Shown here piece after piece: positions 29,749-35,668 of a stretch of 64,000 bases of DNA; within the stretch, counting starts at the first letter, position 1; each line of letters begins with the position of its first letter. The position numbers and the translations under genes are program-made. Where the stretch lies: positions 62,001 to 126,000 of the forward strand of contig JAIXUS010000042.1 in NCBI GenBank assembly GCA_027483445.1, written 5' to 3'. Source of the stretch: Bacteroidota bacterium. Lineage in GTDB: Bacteria; Bacteroidota; Bacteroidia; M30B66. The notes beneath the pieces are model-generated. The model was not told the origin of the DNA and searched no databases. It saw only the letters and a program-made list of their open reading frames with translations.

Positions 29749-29849
29749 TATTCGATGAATTTGGAGTGCAATGATAGGACATTTATAGCAGTAATGGGCT
29801 GATTTACCCTTGAGCGTTGGTTGGATTGAAAAACCCATTAACTTTGAAG

Positions 29850-30015
29850 CGCTCTAAGGTTCATTCGCCTTTCGCGGAATGATGAAAAGGGAATCCTGTG
29901 TAAATCAGGAACAGTACCCGCTGCTGTAAGCCCAAGAAAAAGAGCCGAACAATATGCCACTGTGAAAATGGGAAGGCGTTCGGCTGGGACGAGTCAGAAG
30001 ACCTGCCTTAAAGCA
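29850..30015 (+). promoter_or_regulatory. cobalamin (B12) riboswitch aptamer
   Basis: The conserved core of the cobalamin riboswitch is visible in order: AAAAGGGAA (29885-29893), GTG and ACAGTACCCGC (29910-29920), CTGTAAG, GCCACTG (29956-29962), GGGAAGGC (about 29970-29977) and the B12 box, AGTCAGAAGACCTGCC at 29992-30007. A P1 helix pairs 29851-29859 with 30006-30014 with one mismatch. A peripheral helix pairs AGCCGAAC (29943-29950) with GTTCGGCT (29978-29985). It directly precedes a BtuB-like receptor gene. Known members repress vitamin B12 uptake genes when cobalamin is bound. Confidence 0.96.
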
Positions 30016-30047
30016 ATACGGTTCAACGCCTTCGGGAAGAGAGGCAG

Positions 30048-30138
30048 GAACAGCAAACACACTAGGCAGACTATGCTTTGCCGTGTGCTTACTGTATCAT
30101 TCCCAAAGTGCTGTTAGCCAATTTTTTGAGGAATGATG
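30048..30138 (+). promoter_or_regulatory. riboswitch expression platform with start-codon-sequestering hairpin
   Basis: Downstream of the aptamer an irregular hairpin spans about 30048-30095; it includes CACAC/GTGTG and GGCA/TGCC pairs and probably supplies the kissing loop. Then ATCATTCC (30096-30103) is perfectly complementary to GGAATGAT (30130-30137), which contains the btuB start ATG at 30133. Pairing would hide the start codon. The same GGAATGAT occurs in the aptamer at 29876-29883, an alternative partner. No T-run terminator is seen, so translational control is favoured. Confidence 0.7.
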
Positions 30139-32055
30139 CGACGTTTGATACTCGGTTTGTCTTTTTTGCTGTGCAAGTCTGGAATACAGGCTCAGAGCGA
30201 TACTATGCGCCGTGCCGAGCTTCATATTGTTGAGGTTTCTGATTTAAGGAGTTCTGAAGCCCATTCGCCTTTACTCCAAACCACCATTTCAACCACTGAG
30301 CGTAAAAGTCGAGCGGGATTTTCGCTTGCCGAATTACTCCAACGCCACAGTACTGCCTTCATTCGTCAATATGGCCCCGGAATGCTGGCCAGTCCCGGAT
30401 TACGCGGAACCGGCGCTGCTCATACCGCCTTGGTTTGGAATGGCTTCAATTTGCAAAGTAGCATGAATGGGCAGCTCGATTTAAGTCTGATCTCGGGTAT
30501 GCTATACAGCGGATTTACGCTGAGCGAAGGGGCTTCTAACACCCGTTGGGGCAGTGGAGCCATTGGCGGCGTTATAGCCTTGCAGAATGAGGTGGAAAGC
30601 GGGCTTCAACTCCACCTCGAAGGGGGAAGCTTTCAATACCGCAATTTGGGGCTTTCGGCTGGTTTTGTAACCAAGAAAAGCCGCTTCTCTATTGGCCTGC
30701 AGCATGCTGCTTCGCAAAACGATTTTAGGTTTCGAAACACCGCCGTTGCCGGATTTCCCTTACAATCACAGTCAAATGCACGCTGGCAAAATGGTGGTTT
30801 GCAGATGCAGTGGCAAATCAAGTTGGCCAAAGGGCAAAGTGTAGAGCTCGCTTTTTGGCTTCAGGAGGCCCATCGGCATATTCCGCCCATTATGAGCATT
30901 CCGTTGGCGGTTGCTCATCAGTTCGACAATGCTCTACGCAGCGCTGCCACGTGGAGAATTCAACGAAACAAATGGCATTTAAATGTGAGGACGGGTTACT
31001 TCCGTGAAAGCATCACCTTTAACGATTCTTTAAGCCATATTCACTCGGGAAATACCGCCCATACCGGCAATACCGAAGTTGAGTATATCCGTTTTTTCGG
31101 CAACCGCCATACTCTGCAGTTGGGCGCCTTTGGAGGATACAGCACAGCGTTTTCGCCGGGTTATAATCACCAGTGGGCCACTCAGCAGCGCATGGCCTTG
31201 TTTGCCTTGTGGAAATCGTGGTTGAAGCTCGACCGTGTAAATGTTCAGGCCGGTTTGAGGAAAGAATGGGCCAATGTAGCCGATGGACCATTAACACCAT
31301 CGGCAGCGATTCAATGGCAGGTAAAGAAAAACCTACAGATCAATACGCAGTTCAGCGGCACCTATCGAATTCCAACGCTAAACGACCTGTATTGGATGCC
31401 GGGTGGCAACATCAATTTGCAGCCAGAGCATGGCTGGTCTGCTGAGGCCAATGTTCGCCTTGGTAACAAGCCGGCCAAAAATGGACTGTATTTCGACGGC
31501 GGCCTTTTTCAAAACCGAATCCAAAACTGGATTGTTTGGGTGCCTTCAAGCCTTTTCTGGACGCCGCACAATGTGCACACCGTTGAAAGTCGTGGTCTCC
31601 AGTCGCGGCTGCATTCCCATTTCACGCTGGGTAAACTTGAATTTGTTACCTCACATGGCTTGCAATGGGTGAACGCCAGTCCGGTGAAAACTAGCAATCC
31701 CGACGTGTTTCAAACCGGTCGTCAATTGTTATATATGCCCCGACACACCCAAATGCATACGTTGGGTCTCCACTACAGAAAGTGGGTGTTTGAATGGTTG
31801 GTGCAGTACACCGGGTTGCGATACACGAGCACCGACAATTCATCTAGCCTTCCCGGTTTTTGGCTTGTGAATTTTCAGGTCGACTACAGTTTTTCAAAAA
31901 AGTGGGGGAATGTCCACTGCTTTGGAAGGGTCAACAATCTTTTGGGTGCAGAGTATCAGGTGCTTTCCTGGAGGCCAATGCCTCTTCAGAATGCACAGTT
32001 GGGAATCCGCATACAATTCAAGCCATCTGAATCTAAAATCAACAAACAATCATGA
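30133..32055 (+). CDS. btuB: BtuB-like TonB-dependent cobalamin receptor
   Basis: A 640-residue TonB-dependent outer-membrane receptor, assigned to cobalamin import by the riboswitch just upstream and by its operon partners. A signal peptide ends near IQAQS (residue 21). The plug domain follows, with LAELLQRHSTAFIRQYGPGMLASPGLRGTG, ALVWNGF and GSGAIGGVIALQ (to about 155), then a 22-strand-type barrel with the late receptor motif YRIPTLNDLYW. It lacks the N-terminal carboxypeptidase-like domain of SusC proteins. Tandem ATG codons at 30133 and 30136 lie in the sequestered hairpin. The stop overlaps the next start (ATGA). The identity as BtuB rests mainly on context. Confidence 0.85.
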   Translation: MMRRLILGLSFLLCKSGIQAQSDTMRRAELHIVEVSDLRSSEAHSPLLQTTISTTERKSRAGFSLAELLQRHSTAFIRQYGPGMLASPGLRGTGAAHTALVWNGFNLQSSMNGQLDLSLISGMLYSGFTLSEGASNTRWGSGAIGGVIALQNEVESGLQLHLEGGSFQYRNLGLSAGFVTKKSRFSIGLQHAASQNDFRFRNTAVAGFPLQSQSNARWQNGGLQMQWQIKLAKGQSVELAFWLQEAHRHIPPIMSIPLAVAHQFDNALRSAATWRIQRNKWHLNVRTGYFRESITFNDSLSHIHSGNTAHTGNTEVEYIRFFGNRHTLQLGAFGGYSTAFSPGYNHQWATQQRMALFALWKSWLKLDRVNVQAGLRKEWANVADGPLTPSAAIQWQVKKNLQINTQFSGTYRIPTLNDLYWMPGGNINLQPEHGWSAEANVRLGNKPAKNGLYFDGGLFQNRIQNWIVWVPSSLFWTPHNVHTVESRGLQSRLHSHFTLGKLEFVTSHGLQWVNASPVKTSNPDVFQTGRQLLYMPRHTQMHTLGLHYRKWVFEWLVQYTGLRYTSTDNSSSLPGFWLVNFQVDYSFSKKWGNVHCFGRVNNLLGAEYQVLSWRPMPLQNAQLGIRIQFKPSESKINKQS

Positions 32056-33014
32056 AAAAGACCTTTACTATTATTGCATTTACACTGCTTAGTCTTGCTG
32101 GCCTGCGTGCACAAATTGGTTTTGAAGAGTTTCCATTGGCTCCGGAAAGCGAATGGAACGGAAGCGATTTGACATCGAATAACATCACTGTTGACCCCCT
32201 TATTTTTCCCACAAATTGGGATACTGCATTTGGGGGATATTGGTCTGGAGGATTCGCGCTAAGCAACCATACAGATACAGTTACAAGTGGTTTTACCAAT
32301 ATGTATTCCGCCAAAGCCGGATCGGGTTTCGATGGGTCTTCGAACTATTTGGTAGCTTACGGAGAAACGTATTTTAAGTCTTATTCAGGTTGGCCGTTCG
32401 ACTTGTCAAGTTTTTACATCACCAATACAACTTATGCCTACAACAGCATGCGCGATGGTGACCAGTTTGCAAAGAAGTTTGGAGGCCCGGATGGTACCGA
32501 TCCTGATTTTTTCAGTGTGACATTTCACTGCTTTTGGAACGATGTTCTACAAGATTCGCTCATTGTTTACTTAGCCGATTTTCGCTCAAGCGATCCTGCC
32601 GAAGATTATATAATTCGTGACTGGACTTTGGTGGACTTTACAAATCCAGGAGCTTCCTTTGCCGATAGTGTTCATATTACTTTTGCTTCTTCAGATACGG
32701 GCATGTTCGGCATCAATACACCCCTGTATTTTGCCCTTGATTTAATTACAGCGATTACCTATATCAATGCAACGGATTATGCAGAGGATAATGATGTTGT
32801 ATTTTATCCAAATCCTGCAAACGACTATGTTCAATTGGCAACCAAAGCATCTATCAATTCGGCTGAGTTACTTAGCCTCGACGGCAAGGTCATCCGCCGT
32901 GCGGACAAGCAAAACACATTAGAAACCAGCGATTTAGCCAATGGGTTGTATTGGATTAGAACGGTATTGAATAATGGCAGCATCCGAACCAACAAAGTGG
33001 TGATTCAACATTGA
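32052..33014 (+). CDS. DUF4465-like secreted protein with T9SS sorting domain, B12 operon
   Basis: A 320-residue exported protein with a signal peptide (to about 20, GLRAQ). A beta-sandwich of the DUF4465 type follows, recognisable from FEEFPLAPESEWNGSD, the YWSGGFALSNHTDT segment and the SVTFHCFWNDVLQDSL region. A type A T9SS domain starts near residue 250 (VFYPNPANDYVQ). DUF4465-like proteins recur next to B12 receptors in Bacteroidota, and I recall that the surface cobalamin binder BtuH is related, but this needs checking. Here the protein is sorted by T9SS, not lipidated. It is coupled to btuB and to the next gene by 4-bp overlaps. Confidence 0.82.
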   Translation: MKKTFTIIAFTLLSLAGLRAQIGFEEFPLAPESEWNGSDLTSNNITVDPLIFPTNWDTAFGGYWSGGFALSNHTDTVTSGFTNMYSAKAGSGFDGSSNYLVAYGETYFKSYSGWPFDLSSFYITNTTYAYNSMRDGDQFAKKFGGPDGTDPDFFSVTFHCFWNDVLQDSLIVYLADFRSSDPAEDYIIRDWTLVDFTNPGASFADSVHITFASSDTGMFGINTPLYFALDLITAITYINATDYAEDNDVVFYPNPANDYVQLATKASINSAELLSLDGKVIRRADKQNTLETSDLANGLYWIRTVLNNGSIRTNKVVIQH

Positions 33015-33997
33015 AAGCCGTATCAATTTTTACTTTTCTGAGCGTTCTTTTGGCCGGGCCCACCTGGTCGCAATTTGCGCCTGCACTGGGCTTGCCGGGG
33101 CATATTGCGATGTACAAAGACAGCTCGGCCTTTGTAGCCTGGGCTTCAGGTATTGTGTTGGAACGCGGCCCTATGCAAGTTGGGGTCGATTCGCTGGGTG
33201 ATGCCTGGGTGGGCAATGAGCCGGAAGGCCTTGGGAAAGCCGGAAGCAATGGGGTTATCTGCCTTGGCGATGGCGGGAAGGCTACGGCCACCTTTGATTT
33301 GCCAATAGCCAATGGGCCGAGCTTCGATTTTGCCGTATTCGAAAACAGCTTTGATGGTCAGTTTCTGGAATTGGCCTTCGTGGAGGTGAGTTCGGACGGC
33401 TTGAATTTCGTGCGTTTCCCTTGTTTTTCGAACAGCGATACGCTACCGGGAACCGGAACATTCGGCTACACGCAGCCGGAGAAAATTCACAATCTGGCCG
33501 GGAAATACCCTGTTTTTTATGGAACACCCTTCGATTTACAGGAGCTTTCTGGCACACCCGGGCTCGACATCAACCGGATTACCCATGTTCGGGTGGTAGA
33601 TGTAATTGGCACGATGAATCCCGTTTGGGCCAGCAGAGATGTAACTGGAAGAAAGGTGGCCGACCCATGGCCAACTCCTTTTCCTTCAGGAGGCTTTGAT
33701 TTAGATGCGATTGGTGTGATTCATCAAATGCCCGCGGGCTTTGTTTGGCACGAGGAGCAATCAAATTATGTGGTTTTTCCGCAACCGGCTGAGGATCATT
33801 TGTATATACGAAGTTTAGCGCCTGATGACAGGCCCTTGAGCTACAGTCTTATCGATCTTTCCGGACGAATTTTGCAAACGACCGAACTCCCCGGCGATGG
33901 TCGTGTTATATTGCCTCAGATAACATCAGGGCTATATATGCTTCAGGTTCGGGGTAGTTCCGGGTATTTCAACAGGCCAATTGTAATTAGTAGATGA
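33011..33997 (+). CDS. secreted cell-surface protein with T9SS sorting domain, B12 operon
   Basis: A 328-residue exported protein. It starts with TTG at 33011, overlapping the previous stop as TTGA; no ATG exists before the end of its signal peptide (KAVSIFTFLSVLLAG, to about 21), so the TTG is credible. The body is a single beta-rich domain with SNGVICLGDGGKATATFD, FAVFENSFDG and the acidic-flanked GGFDLDAIGVIHQ, a pattern seen in hypothetical cell-surface proteins of Bacteroidota B12 loci. A T9SS domain follows (VVFPQPAEDHLY, from about 255). The function is unknown; a role in capturing or handing over cobalamin is inferred only from the operon. Confidence 0.8.
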   Translation: MKAVSIFTFLSVLLAGPTWSQFAPALGLPGHIAMYKDSSAFVAWASGIVLERGPMQVGVDSLGDAWVGNEPEGLGKAGSNGVICLGDGGKATATFDLPIANGPSFDFAVFENSFDGQFLELAFVEVSSDGLNFVRFPCFSNSDTLPGTGTFGYTQPEKIHNLAGKYPVFYGTPFDLQELSGTPGLDINRITHVRVVDVIGTMNPVWASRDVTGRKVADPWPTPFPSGGFDLDAIGVIHQMPAGFVWHEEQSNYVVFPQPAEDHLYIRSLAPDDRPLSYSLIDLSGRILQTTELPGDGRVILPQITSGLYMLQVRGSSGYFNRPIVISR

Positions 33998-35013
33998 GGT
34001 GGTTTTGCGGGCTTTTATTGCTTTTTGCGCTTTCCTGTAAGAAAGACAAACCTACGCAGCCGGAAACGGAGGTGTTGAAGGGGCAGAGTGTTTTTGTGCT
34101 TAACGAAGGCAACTTCATGTGGGGCAATGCTTCTCTTTCGCACATTAACCTCAGCACTTCGCAAATTCGTGAAGATGTATTCAGTGCGCACAATCAGCGT
34201 CCGGTGGGCGATGTGCTTAATTCATCGCTGAGTGTAAACGGTCAGCTTTGGTTGATTGTGAACAACTCTCAAAAAATTGAACGGCTTAACGAAACTACCT
34301 TACAGGCACTTGAGCCCATTTCGGGTTTGCATTCGCCACGCTTTGCCGCCCATGTAGCAGCCGGCAAGGTTTACGTTACCGATTTGTATGCCAACAAGAT
34401 TCACATTATCAATGAAACTTCAGCTACTCTTACCGGGCATATTCCGGTAAGTGGCTGGACGGAAGGGATTGTGGTTTCGCAAGGTTGGGTTTGGGTGTGC
34501 AATACCGGAGCTGATGTGGTGTATAAAATCGATCCGTCGGAAGATCGCATTGTCGACTCGATTGAGGTAGGCGACAATCCAAGGAATATTGTGGCCGACG
34601 CTTCCGGCAAAATTTGGGTGTTGTGCGAAGGCAATATTCCTCCACAAGAAAGTGCCGGAAGCCTGTGGAAGATTGACCCGACAAATCTCGACAGTGTGCT
34701 TTCGTTTGCCCATGCTCAAATAAGCGATCACCCTTCGCGGCTTTGTATTTCACCACAGGGCGATTTTCTGTATTGGATTAAAGATGGGGTTTTCAGGATG
34801 GCCATTCAGCAAACAGCGTTGCCAACCGGACCGTTTATTCCAGCCGACGGTCGCCTGTTTTATGGCTTGGGAATTAGTCCGATTCATGATATTTTTGTAA
34901 GCGACGCTAAAGATTACGTACAAAAAGGTAAAGTATACCGTTATTCGGCTGATGGATTATCTAAAGGAAGTTGGGATGCAGGAATCATTCCCGGCGGATT
35001 TCATTTCTACTGA
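33994..35013 (+). CDS. BtuG-like beta-propeller surface lipoprotein
   Basis: A 339-residue lipoprotein with the lipobox ALSC (Cys15) followed by a Lys/Asp-rich stretch. The rest is a YncE/DUF5074-type beta-propeller; repeated blades are visible in QSVFVLNEGNFMWG, GKVYVTDLYANKIHII, GWVWVCNTGADVVYKID and GKIWVLCEGN. This is the architecture of Bacteroides BtuG, a surface lipoprotein that binds cobalamin very tightly and caps BtuB. The location four genes after a cobalamin riboswitch and btuB makes that role likely. It overlaps the previous gene by 4 bp (ATGA) and the next by 38 bp. Confidence 0.86.
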   Translation: MRWFCGLLLLFALSCKKDKPTQPETEVLKGQSVFVLNEGNFMWGNASLSHINLSTSQIREDVFSAHNQRPVGDVLNSSLSVNGQLWLIVNNSQKIERLNETTLQALEPISGLHSPRFAAHVAAGKVYVTDLYANKIHIINETSATLTGHIPVSGWTEGIVVSQGWVWVCNTGADVVYKIDPSEDRIVDSIEVGDNPRNIVADASGKIWVLCEGNIPPQESAGSLWKIDPTNLDSVLSFAHAQISDHPSRLCISPQGDFLYWIKDGVFRMAIQQTALPTGPFIPADGRLFYGLGISPIHDIFVSDAKDYVQKGKVYRYSADGLSKGSWDAGIIPGGFHFY

Positions 35014-35668
35014 TTCAGCAAAACCCTTTGTGGCTCGTCCATGGAGCCCCCTCTACATTGGTGTTATTGCTTATTTCTGTTTGTTGCTTCCAGGCGTGCT
35101 GCTTATGAGCCTCAATTACAGGCGAATGCAGTTTTTAACCAAGGCGCGGTATGCTTTGCTTATTGGTGTGCCGCTTTCGCTGGTTTATCTGGGTTTGTTG
35201 GTGTATTTACCAGAGTCGGCCGATTGGGGGCTTAAGGCTGCGCAGATGGCTTTGGCGTTTTGTGTCGCAGCTATACCTTACAACGATTATCGCCACTACC
35301 ATACAAAGCACCCTGGCTTGGTCAATGCCTCGCTGATAAAGCCTGCTGTATTTAGCTTGATATTCCCATTAACAATTTTAGGAGGTGATTATTTGTACAG
35401 TCGGCACCGGGAGCACGAAAAGCAGCAAATGCTCAGTACAGCACTTGAAGCCTACCGCAATGCACGTTACCGCGAGGCGCTAAACACCTTAAAGGCCATC
35501 CGTCGGGAGTTTCCGGCTGAGCGTCTTGGCTACATTAATTCTGCCATTGCTTACGAAGCGGTAGGACAGAAAGACTCCGCCAGAATACTTGTTGTGGATT
35601 GGTTAAAACAGGCTCCGAACGATGAAGATGCGCGCGCCTTACTTCGTCAGTTTAATTCAGGAAGCTGA
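34976..35668 (+). CDS. membrane protein with C-terminal TPR-like region, end of B12 operon
   Basis: About 230 residues from the ATG at 34976 (MQESFPADF). It has four likely membrane segments (around 20-45, 60-80, 85-110 and 130-150) and a soluble helical tail with TPR-like periodicity (ALEAYRNARYREALNTLKAI, IAYEAVGQKDSARILV). I do not recognise the family. It overlaps the BtuG-like gene by 38 bp and so belongs to the riboswitch-controlled operon. A part in transport is possible but unsupported. Its end overlaps the end of hutH on the other strand by 22 bp. Confidence 0.72.
   Translation: MQESFPADFISTDSAKPFVARPWSPLYIGVIAYFCLLLPGVLLMSLNYRRMQFLTKARYALLIGVPLSLVYLGLLVYLPESADWGLKAAQMALAFCVAAIPYNDYRHYHTKHPGLVNASLIKPAVFSLIFPLTILGGDYLYSRHREHEKQQMLSTALEAYRNARYREALNTLKAIRREFPAERLGYINSAIAYEAVGQKDSARILVVDWLKQAPNDEDARALLRQFNSGS

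Follow-up and report, generated by a model that had tools for sequence, protein, structure and literature searches.

We describe here a predicted operon for the capture of vitamin B12 (cobalamin), found in a 64,000-nucleotide stretch of DNA (the window, to which all coordinates refer) from the 4.26-Mb genome of an environmental Bacteroidota bacterium. Behind a Cobalamin riboswitch, five genes on the same strand encode, in order, a BtuB-like TonB-dependent receptor, a BtuJ-type DUF4465 protein, a protein that we call P3, a BtuG-like lipoprotein and a membrane protein, P5 (Table 1). Judging from sequence comparisons and structure models, we consider it about 80% probable that the operon is a locus for B12 uptake through BtuB-BtuG in which the BtuJ- and BtuH-type capture proteins are not lipoproteins and are instead sent out by the type IX secretion system (T9SS).

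Identity of the operon genes

The Rfam, Protein Data Bank (PDB) and Pfam matches in Table 1 agree with the riboswitch and gene identities claimed in an earlier note on this DNA, and the coordinates of the open reading frames (ORFs) agree with the 4-bp overlaps that it saw joining the first four genes. An identical gene set lies behind riboswitches in many other genomes, so the operon is not a chance arrangement. The closest PDB entries to the receptor are BtuB proteins of Bacteroides solved in complex with BtuG, and on this match we call it putatively Bacteroides-type BtuB-like; it has diverged from the E. coli-type BtuB model. The BtuG-like protein combines a BtuG-type propeller with a lipoprotein signal, the lipobox being recognizable by eye in its N-terminus, MRWFCGLLLLFALSCKKD. 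As in the BtuB-BtuG complexes (PDB 8bmx, 8p97, 8p98), both partners are encoded, with BtuG as a lipoprotein, but here their genes are kept apart by those of the two T9SS proteins.

The DUF4465 protein scores 147.9 bits against PF14717 (cut-off 25), and its nearest structures are the B12-bound D5EK51 and BtuJ2 (PDB 9hmu, E 5.6e-20; 9i2l, E 2.3e-9). It shares with BtuJ1, BtuJ2 and D5EK51 the DUF4465 domain (IPR027828), the NTPxYF loop, the DE-helix tyrosine region (YAYNSM at residue 128) and a location in a B12 locus. BtuJ1 and BtuJ2 are tight cobalamin binders (PMC12751083), and binding has also been proven for six further diverse DUF4465 members, a Fluviicola taffensis protein among them (PMC13398666), which brings the proven binders to eight. 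The window protein differs in carrying a T9SS sorting domain in place of the lipobox. This combination is not new, because C-terminal extracellular targeting motifs have already been reported on 38% of 824 DUF4465 proteins, 229 of them IPR026444 (PMC12751083).

The TIGR04183 scores of the DUF4465 protein and P3 both exceed the cut-off of 23 bits, as expected from the earlier note, which had assigned T9SS C-terminal domains to these two middle proteins. With this domain on each protein and SprA encoded in the genome (2535 bits), both have the features of T9SS type A cargo. The overall reading in that note, that the operon captures B12 with the help of two accessory proteins exported by T9SS, is supported by evidence that is consistent throughout, surface location and binding being predicted from sequence.

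Table 1. Coordinates of the operon features in the window, with the evidence for each
Feature	Position	Strand	Evidence
Candidate Bacteroidota-type promoter, TTG-N19-TAACTTTG	29817-29846	+	At aptamer start
Cobalamin riboswitch aptamer (RF00174)	29840-30024	+	108.9 bits (gathering 31.5), E 2.4e-26
Predicted hairpin, AUCAUUCC pairing with GGAAUGAU	30093-30140	+	RNAfold; would pair the btuB start-codon region
btuB-like TonB-dependent receptor gene	30133-32055	+	PF00593/PF07715; PDB Bacteroides BtuB, E 5.5e-49
btuJ-like DUF4465 protein gene	32052-33014	+	PF14717, E 5.1e-43; T9SS sorting domain, residues 252-319, TIGR04183 36.9 bits
NTPLYF, conserved B12-binding HI-loop motif of the DUF4465 family	32715-32732	+	Residues 222-227; compared with NTPxY (PMC12751083, PMC13398666)
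P3 gene, BtuH-superfamily protein	33011-33997	+	BtuH fold match, reciprocal profiles; T9SS sorting domain, residues 255-326, TIGR04183 33.7 bits
P3 BtuH-type domain, modelled part	33071-33736	+	Residues 21-242; AlphaFold2, predicted local distance difference test (pLDDT) 93.8, predicted template modelling score 0.92
ENSF of P3 (Asn112, Phe114)	33341-33352	+	Counterpart of BtuH2 Asn399/Phe401 in the combined alignment
btuG-like beta-propeller lipoprotein gene	33994-35013	+	PF16819, E 5.6e-17; PDB BtuG 8p97, E 1.7e-54; lipobox ALSC
P5 gene, membrane protein with C-terminal TPR	34952-35668	+	TPR_19, E 1.7e-5; start uncertain

P3, a distant relative of BtuH

Pfam finds no domain besides the sorting domain in P3 and 75 relatives, and a P3 profile run against the PDB reaches significant E-values with sorting domains alone. 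The predicted structure of the remaining part is more informative. Its top fold match in the PDB is BtuH2 (7biz; Z 12.8, 158 residues aligned), over chain residues 318-593, which form the B12-binding C-terminal domain of the Bacteroides thetaiotaomicron protein, followed by the BtuH part of BtuGH (8blw_B, Z 11.2).

Sequence profiles point the same way. Among B12 loci that we fetched from Bacteroidales genomes, two (L195, L200) have a recognizable BtuGH gene immediately after btuB, ahead of the DUF4465 gene, and in another (L196) the gene of a BtuH2-like lipoprotein stands between the DUF4465 gene and btuG. The P3 profile matches the Bacteroides-type BtuGH at 5e-5 and 1e-5 and the BtuH2-like lipoprotein at 2e-3. 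In the reverse direction, a profile built from nine BtuH domains and searched against 2611 ORFs recovers 79 of 102 P3 ORFs at E<=0.1, with 0 unrelated hits (best E 4.7e-7). A phylum-wide search added an intermediate family with E-values as low as 3e-20 to P3 and 3e-9 to BtuH. Of its 16 members examined, 15 adjoin btuB or btuG, and many lie behind riboswitches. A quick tree (164 columns) separates P3, the intermediates and BtuH into three groups, with modest support for the first two. We thus regard P3 as a distant relative of BtuH, in a short clade of its own within the BtuH superfamily.

P3 shares with BtuH2 (BT_1956; 7biz) the predicted fold of the B12-binding C-terminal domain, LGxGG, DF, the Asn399/Phe401 motif and its place in a B12 operon; it differs in the absence of PKD domains and in the presence of the sorting domain. 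A lipoprotein signal test on P3 was negative (the signal peptide ends ..TWSQ, with no lipobox Cys). Since P3 has a T9SS sorting domain instead of a lipobox, we class it as a BtuH-superfamily protein and not as an ortholog of the lipoprotein BtuH. In the wider family, 20 of the 22 P3 proteins tested have the sorting domain and nearly all are without a lipobox. The HMM check that the earlier note had suggested for the two middle gene products therefore gave one DUF4465/BtuJ-type and one BtuH-superfamily protein; the outcome that it had feared, that neither is related to proteins of B12 loci, did not occur, as both are.

Two further observations concern the borders of the family. The NCBIfam model NF033170, of Leptospira LIC_13355 lipoproteins, matches 17 of 22 P3 members weakly (best 7.8e-7), which may point to relatives beyond the Bacteroidota; BtuH domains gave no match to it. 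In another locus (L214:5832-7256, - strand), a canonical BtuH domain encoded next to btuB has a C-terminal stretch that resembles a T9SS sorting domain, and T9SS tails may therefore reach beyond the P3 clade.

P3 and B12 loci across Bacteroidota

A survey of riboswitch-linked operons in relatives had also been proposed. In a set of 60 related genomes, a Cobalamin riboswitch lies upstream of P3 on the same strand in 16 of the 18 strong loci assessed, with none at L066 and L070; five more loci were cut by contig ends. The usual gene orders are riboswitch-btuB-btuJ-P3-btuG and riboswitch-btuJ-P3-btuB-btuG.

Scanning a public collection confirmed at least 541 P3 relatives; a plasmid search gave no match to P3. 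We surveyed the loci of the best 80 of these, chosen by P3 similarity alone, and found a B12 marker near P3 in 67, including 54 with btuB, btuG or DUF4465 within 4.5 kb. In the other 13 the riboswitch is the only marker, with no btuB, btuG or btuJ beside P3. Riboswitches were sought with Rfam in 19 of the loci that lack btuB and btuG and with a B12-box regular expression in the others; their counts across the 80 loci are lower bounds, because the expression recovers just 11 of 20 known riboswitches. No B12 marker was seen in 13 of the 80 loci, 7 of which have <2.5 kb of upstream sequence. That loci picked by P3 similarity alone are nevertheless linked to B12 argues strongly for a place of P3 in the B12 regulon.

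Some P3 loci hold other unusual genes. The first gene behind the riboswitch of one Bacteroidales P3 operon (L124:6811-8001, +) encodes a T9SS protein with a DUF4430 domain (PF14478, 1.3e-7), and two other loci (L114, L154) have at this position a protein with a similar N-terminus. We take DUF4430 to be a transcobalamin-like domain, and this protein may be a T9SS-exported B12 binder of a third kind. In four loci (L068:8852-10129, -; L075:6518-7996, +; L128:6535-7836, +; L151:6673-7941, +) a protein with a T9SS tail, propeller-like in appearance and lacking its own Pfam domain, replaces the DUF4465 protein behind the riboswitch. After btuG, four ORFs (L067:9612-10322, -; L068:3355-4107, -; L073:9062-9745, +; L075:11852-12532, +) carry an SGGKDS/SGGKDA motif and look by eye like Dph6-like ATP pyrophosphatases.

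The putative B12 site and alternative interpretations

P3 probably binds B12. BtuH2 contacts B12 through Asn399, which touches the phosphate, and Phe401 (PMC8941943); we set the Asn399 number on a B. thetaiotaomicron-like sequence from N-x-F and the spacing to His476. Positions common to P3, the intermediates and BtuH in the alignment include, in P3 numbering, L85, G86, G89, D106, F107, N112, E120 and D129.

Several observations weigh against a B12-capture locus with a BtuH-type P3. The receptor falls far short of the E. coli-type BtuB equivalog TIGR01779 (83.8 bits, cut-off 599.7). In hhalign, P3 matches BtuH at 89% probability over just 51 columns, and six public P3 loci with ample upstream flank have no B12 marker. 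For the inner-membrane step of B12 import, a clear BtuC was not found in the genome, where the sole FecCD hits belong to a metal-type ABC-3 transporter. The second half of P3 diverges from BtuH and is without its Asp/Asn-rich DxNxNGxxDD loop; His476, Trp577 and Leu578 of BtuH2 have no clear P3 counterpart in the alignment, and Gln333 would probably correspond to P3 Leu28.

Contact residues without a clear counterpart would suit a P3 that has the BtuH fold but does not bind B12, and that, like BtuL, serves the capture complex as scaffold or docking partner or has a part in vesicle or surface biology; B. thetaiotaomicron BtuL and BtuK2, though encoded in B12 operons, do not bind cobalamin (PMC12751083). 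However, Asn112 and the LGxGG/DF core are kept in all three clades, and the 13 public loci where P3 is the sole gene behind a riboswitch fit a binder better than a scaffold. We therefore consider a non-binding P3 unlikely.

The BtuB-type receptors of Bacteroides vary in corrinoid preference, and the operon might chiefly gather a cobamide precursor or analogue, such as cobinamide, and not complete B12. BtuH itself contacts the corrin ring and the nucleotide loop of B12 but hardly the lower ligand (PMC8941943), which would allow this. Yet no sequence feature indicates a precursor (biosynthesis genes fell outside the survey), and such a role seems improbable to us.

That P3 is a generic carbohydrate-binding T9SS protein (CBM32/F5-8 type C), with a beta-sandwich merely common to BtuH, is very improbable: carbohydrate-binding modules (CBM32) are the next best folds, at Z 9.6 and below, and the BtuH fold is modestly similar to AlyQ (PMC8941943), but BtuH ranks first with a gap, sequence profiles tie P3 specifically to BtuH, none of 75 P3 domains has a CBM32 or F5/8 Pfam match, and the riboswitch link would be left without explanation.

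Proposed mechanism and comparison with gut Bacteroides

Returning to a locus with T9SS-exported capture proteins, we infer the export of the DUF4465 protein and P3, the hand-over of B12 and the direction of regulation as follows. When B12 is scarce, the riboswitch would permit expression of the operon, which would be repressed by B12. BtuB, the TonB-dependent channel of the outer membrane, and BtuG, its surface lipoprotein lid, would form the import complex. The BtuJ-type protein and P3, soluble and made with signal peptides, would cross the outer membrane through the T9SS and be either anchored at the surface or released into the medium, where they would bind B12 and pass it on to BtuG and BtuB. 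They would thus fill the role that lipoprotein BtuJ and BtuH have in gut Bacteroides.

The B. thetaiotaomicron operons (btuB, btuG, btuH, btuJ, btuK, btuL; BT_1486-1491, BT_1949-1957) likewise unite a riboswitch, BtuB, BtuG, a DUF4465 protein and a BtuH-type domain. In contrast, the BtuJ- and BtuH-type proteins of the window have T9SS sorting domains and no lipobox, and its operon is without btuFCD, btuK and btuL and has an extra TPR membrane gene.

The paper on BtuH presents the domain as without known structural homologs and as a B12-binding class of gut Bacteroidetes. In the limited literature searched, we found no paper that treats BtuH together with T9SS; the export of BtuH-superfamily proteins by T9SS, how widely they occur and the riboswitch control of their stand-alone genes appear undescribed there. 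P3 represents a large, previously unlabelled sister family of BtuH in environmental Bacteroidota, linked to B12 by riboswitches, and at least 541 proteins to which no domain had been assigned now have a clear candidate function. A broader idea falls a little short of even odds in our view: that the BtuH domain is an ancient B12-binding module, spread through the whole phylum Bacteroidota, mostly exported by T9SS and often the sole gene behind a riboswitch, where it would be a secreted or surface-anchored scavenger in its own right, the gut lipoprotein BtuH being one derived branch. It becomes testable whether bacteria with T9SS capture B12 through released or lipopolysaccharide-anchored proteins, a strategy resembling that of siderophores, for which gut Bacteroides have been proposed to use vesicles.

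B12 need, P5 and the surroundings of the operon

Three proteins of the genome have a B12-binding domain above cut-off, which suggests a need for the vitamin; their sizes fit methylmalonyl-CoA mutase, MetH and a fused mutase, names that we assign provisionally. There is only one BtuF-type protein. The FecCD-type hits (G000:C86:81292-83168; L221:961-2253, -) are an ABC-3 pair, one of which is fused to an iron-dependent-repressor C-terminal domain.

The last gene had already been singled out as unusual for such a locus, and P5 is indeed confined to genomes of its own family: it follows btuG in six others of that family, and among 296 phylum-wide genomes it occurs only in the window's own. P5 is a lineage-specific operon member. 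Three of its hydrophobic helices are clear and a fourth is possible; its structure model is poor (pLDDT 67). Its start is doubtful, because the gene in relatives begins just past the btuG stop and similarity sets in at about residue 31; GTG 35030 and ATG 34976 are alternatives. We considered P5 as a stand-in for the missing BtuC and found no supporting evidence.

The riboswitch is the single copy above the gathering score in the genome. TTG-N19-TANNTTTG has one exact match in the window, at the aptamer start, and its position is merely suggestive since 0.92 matches are expected by chance over the whole window; a scan for sigma-70-type promoters gave fewer sites than expected by chance. The predicted start-codon hairpin is at best a possible, weak candidate for an expression platform, and the folding z-score of the whole leader is only -1.55 (RNAfold). 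We dropped it as the mode of control, as relatives' leaders fold differently, some into terminator-like structures, and with such variation we claim no mode.

Both genes that flank the operon are on the opposite strand; judged by eye, the upstream one is M16-peptidase-like and the downstream one histidine-ammonia-lyase-like. The 3' ends of P5 and the latter gene overlap by 22 bp (35647-35668).

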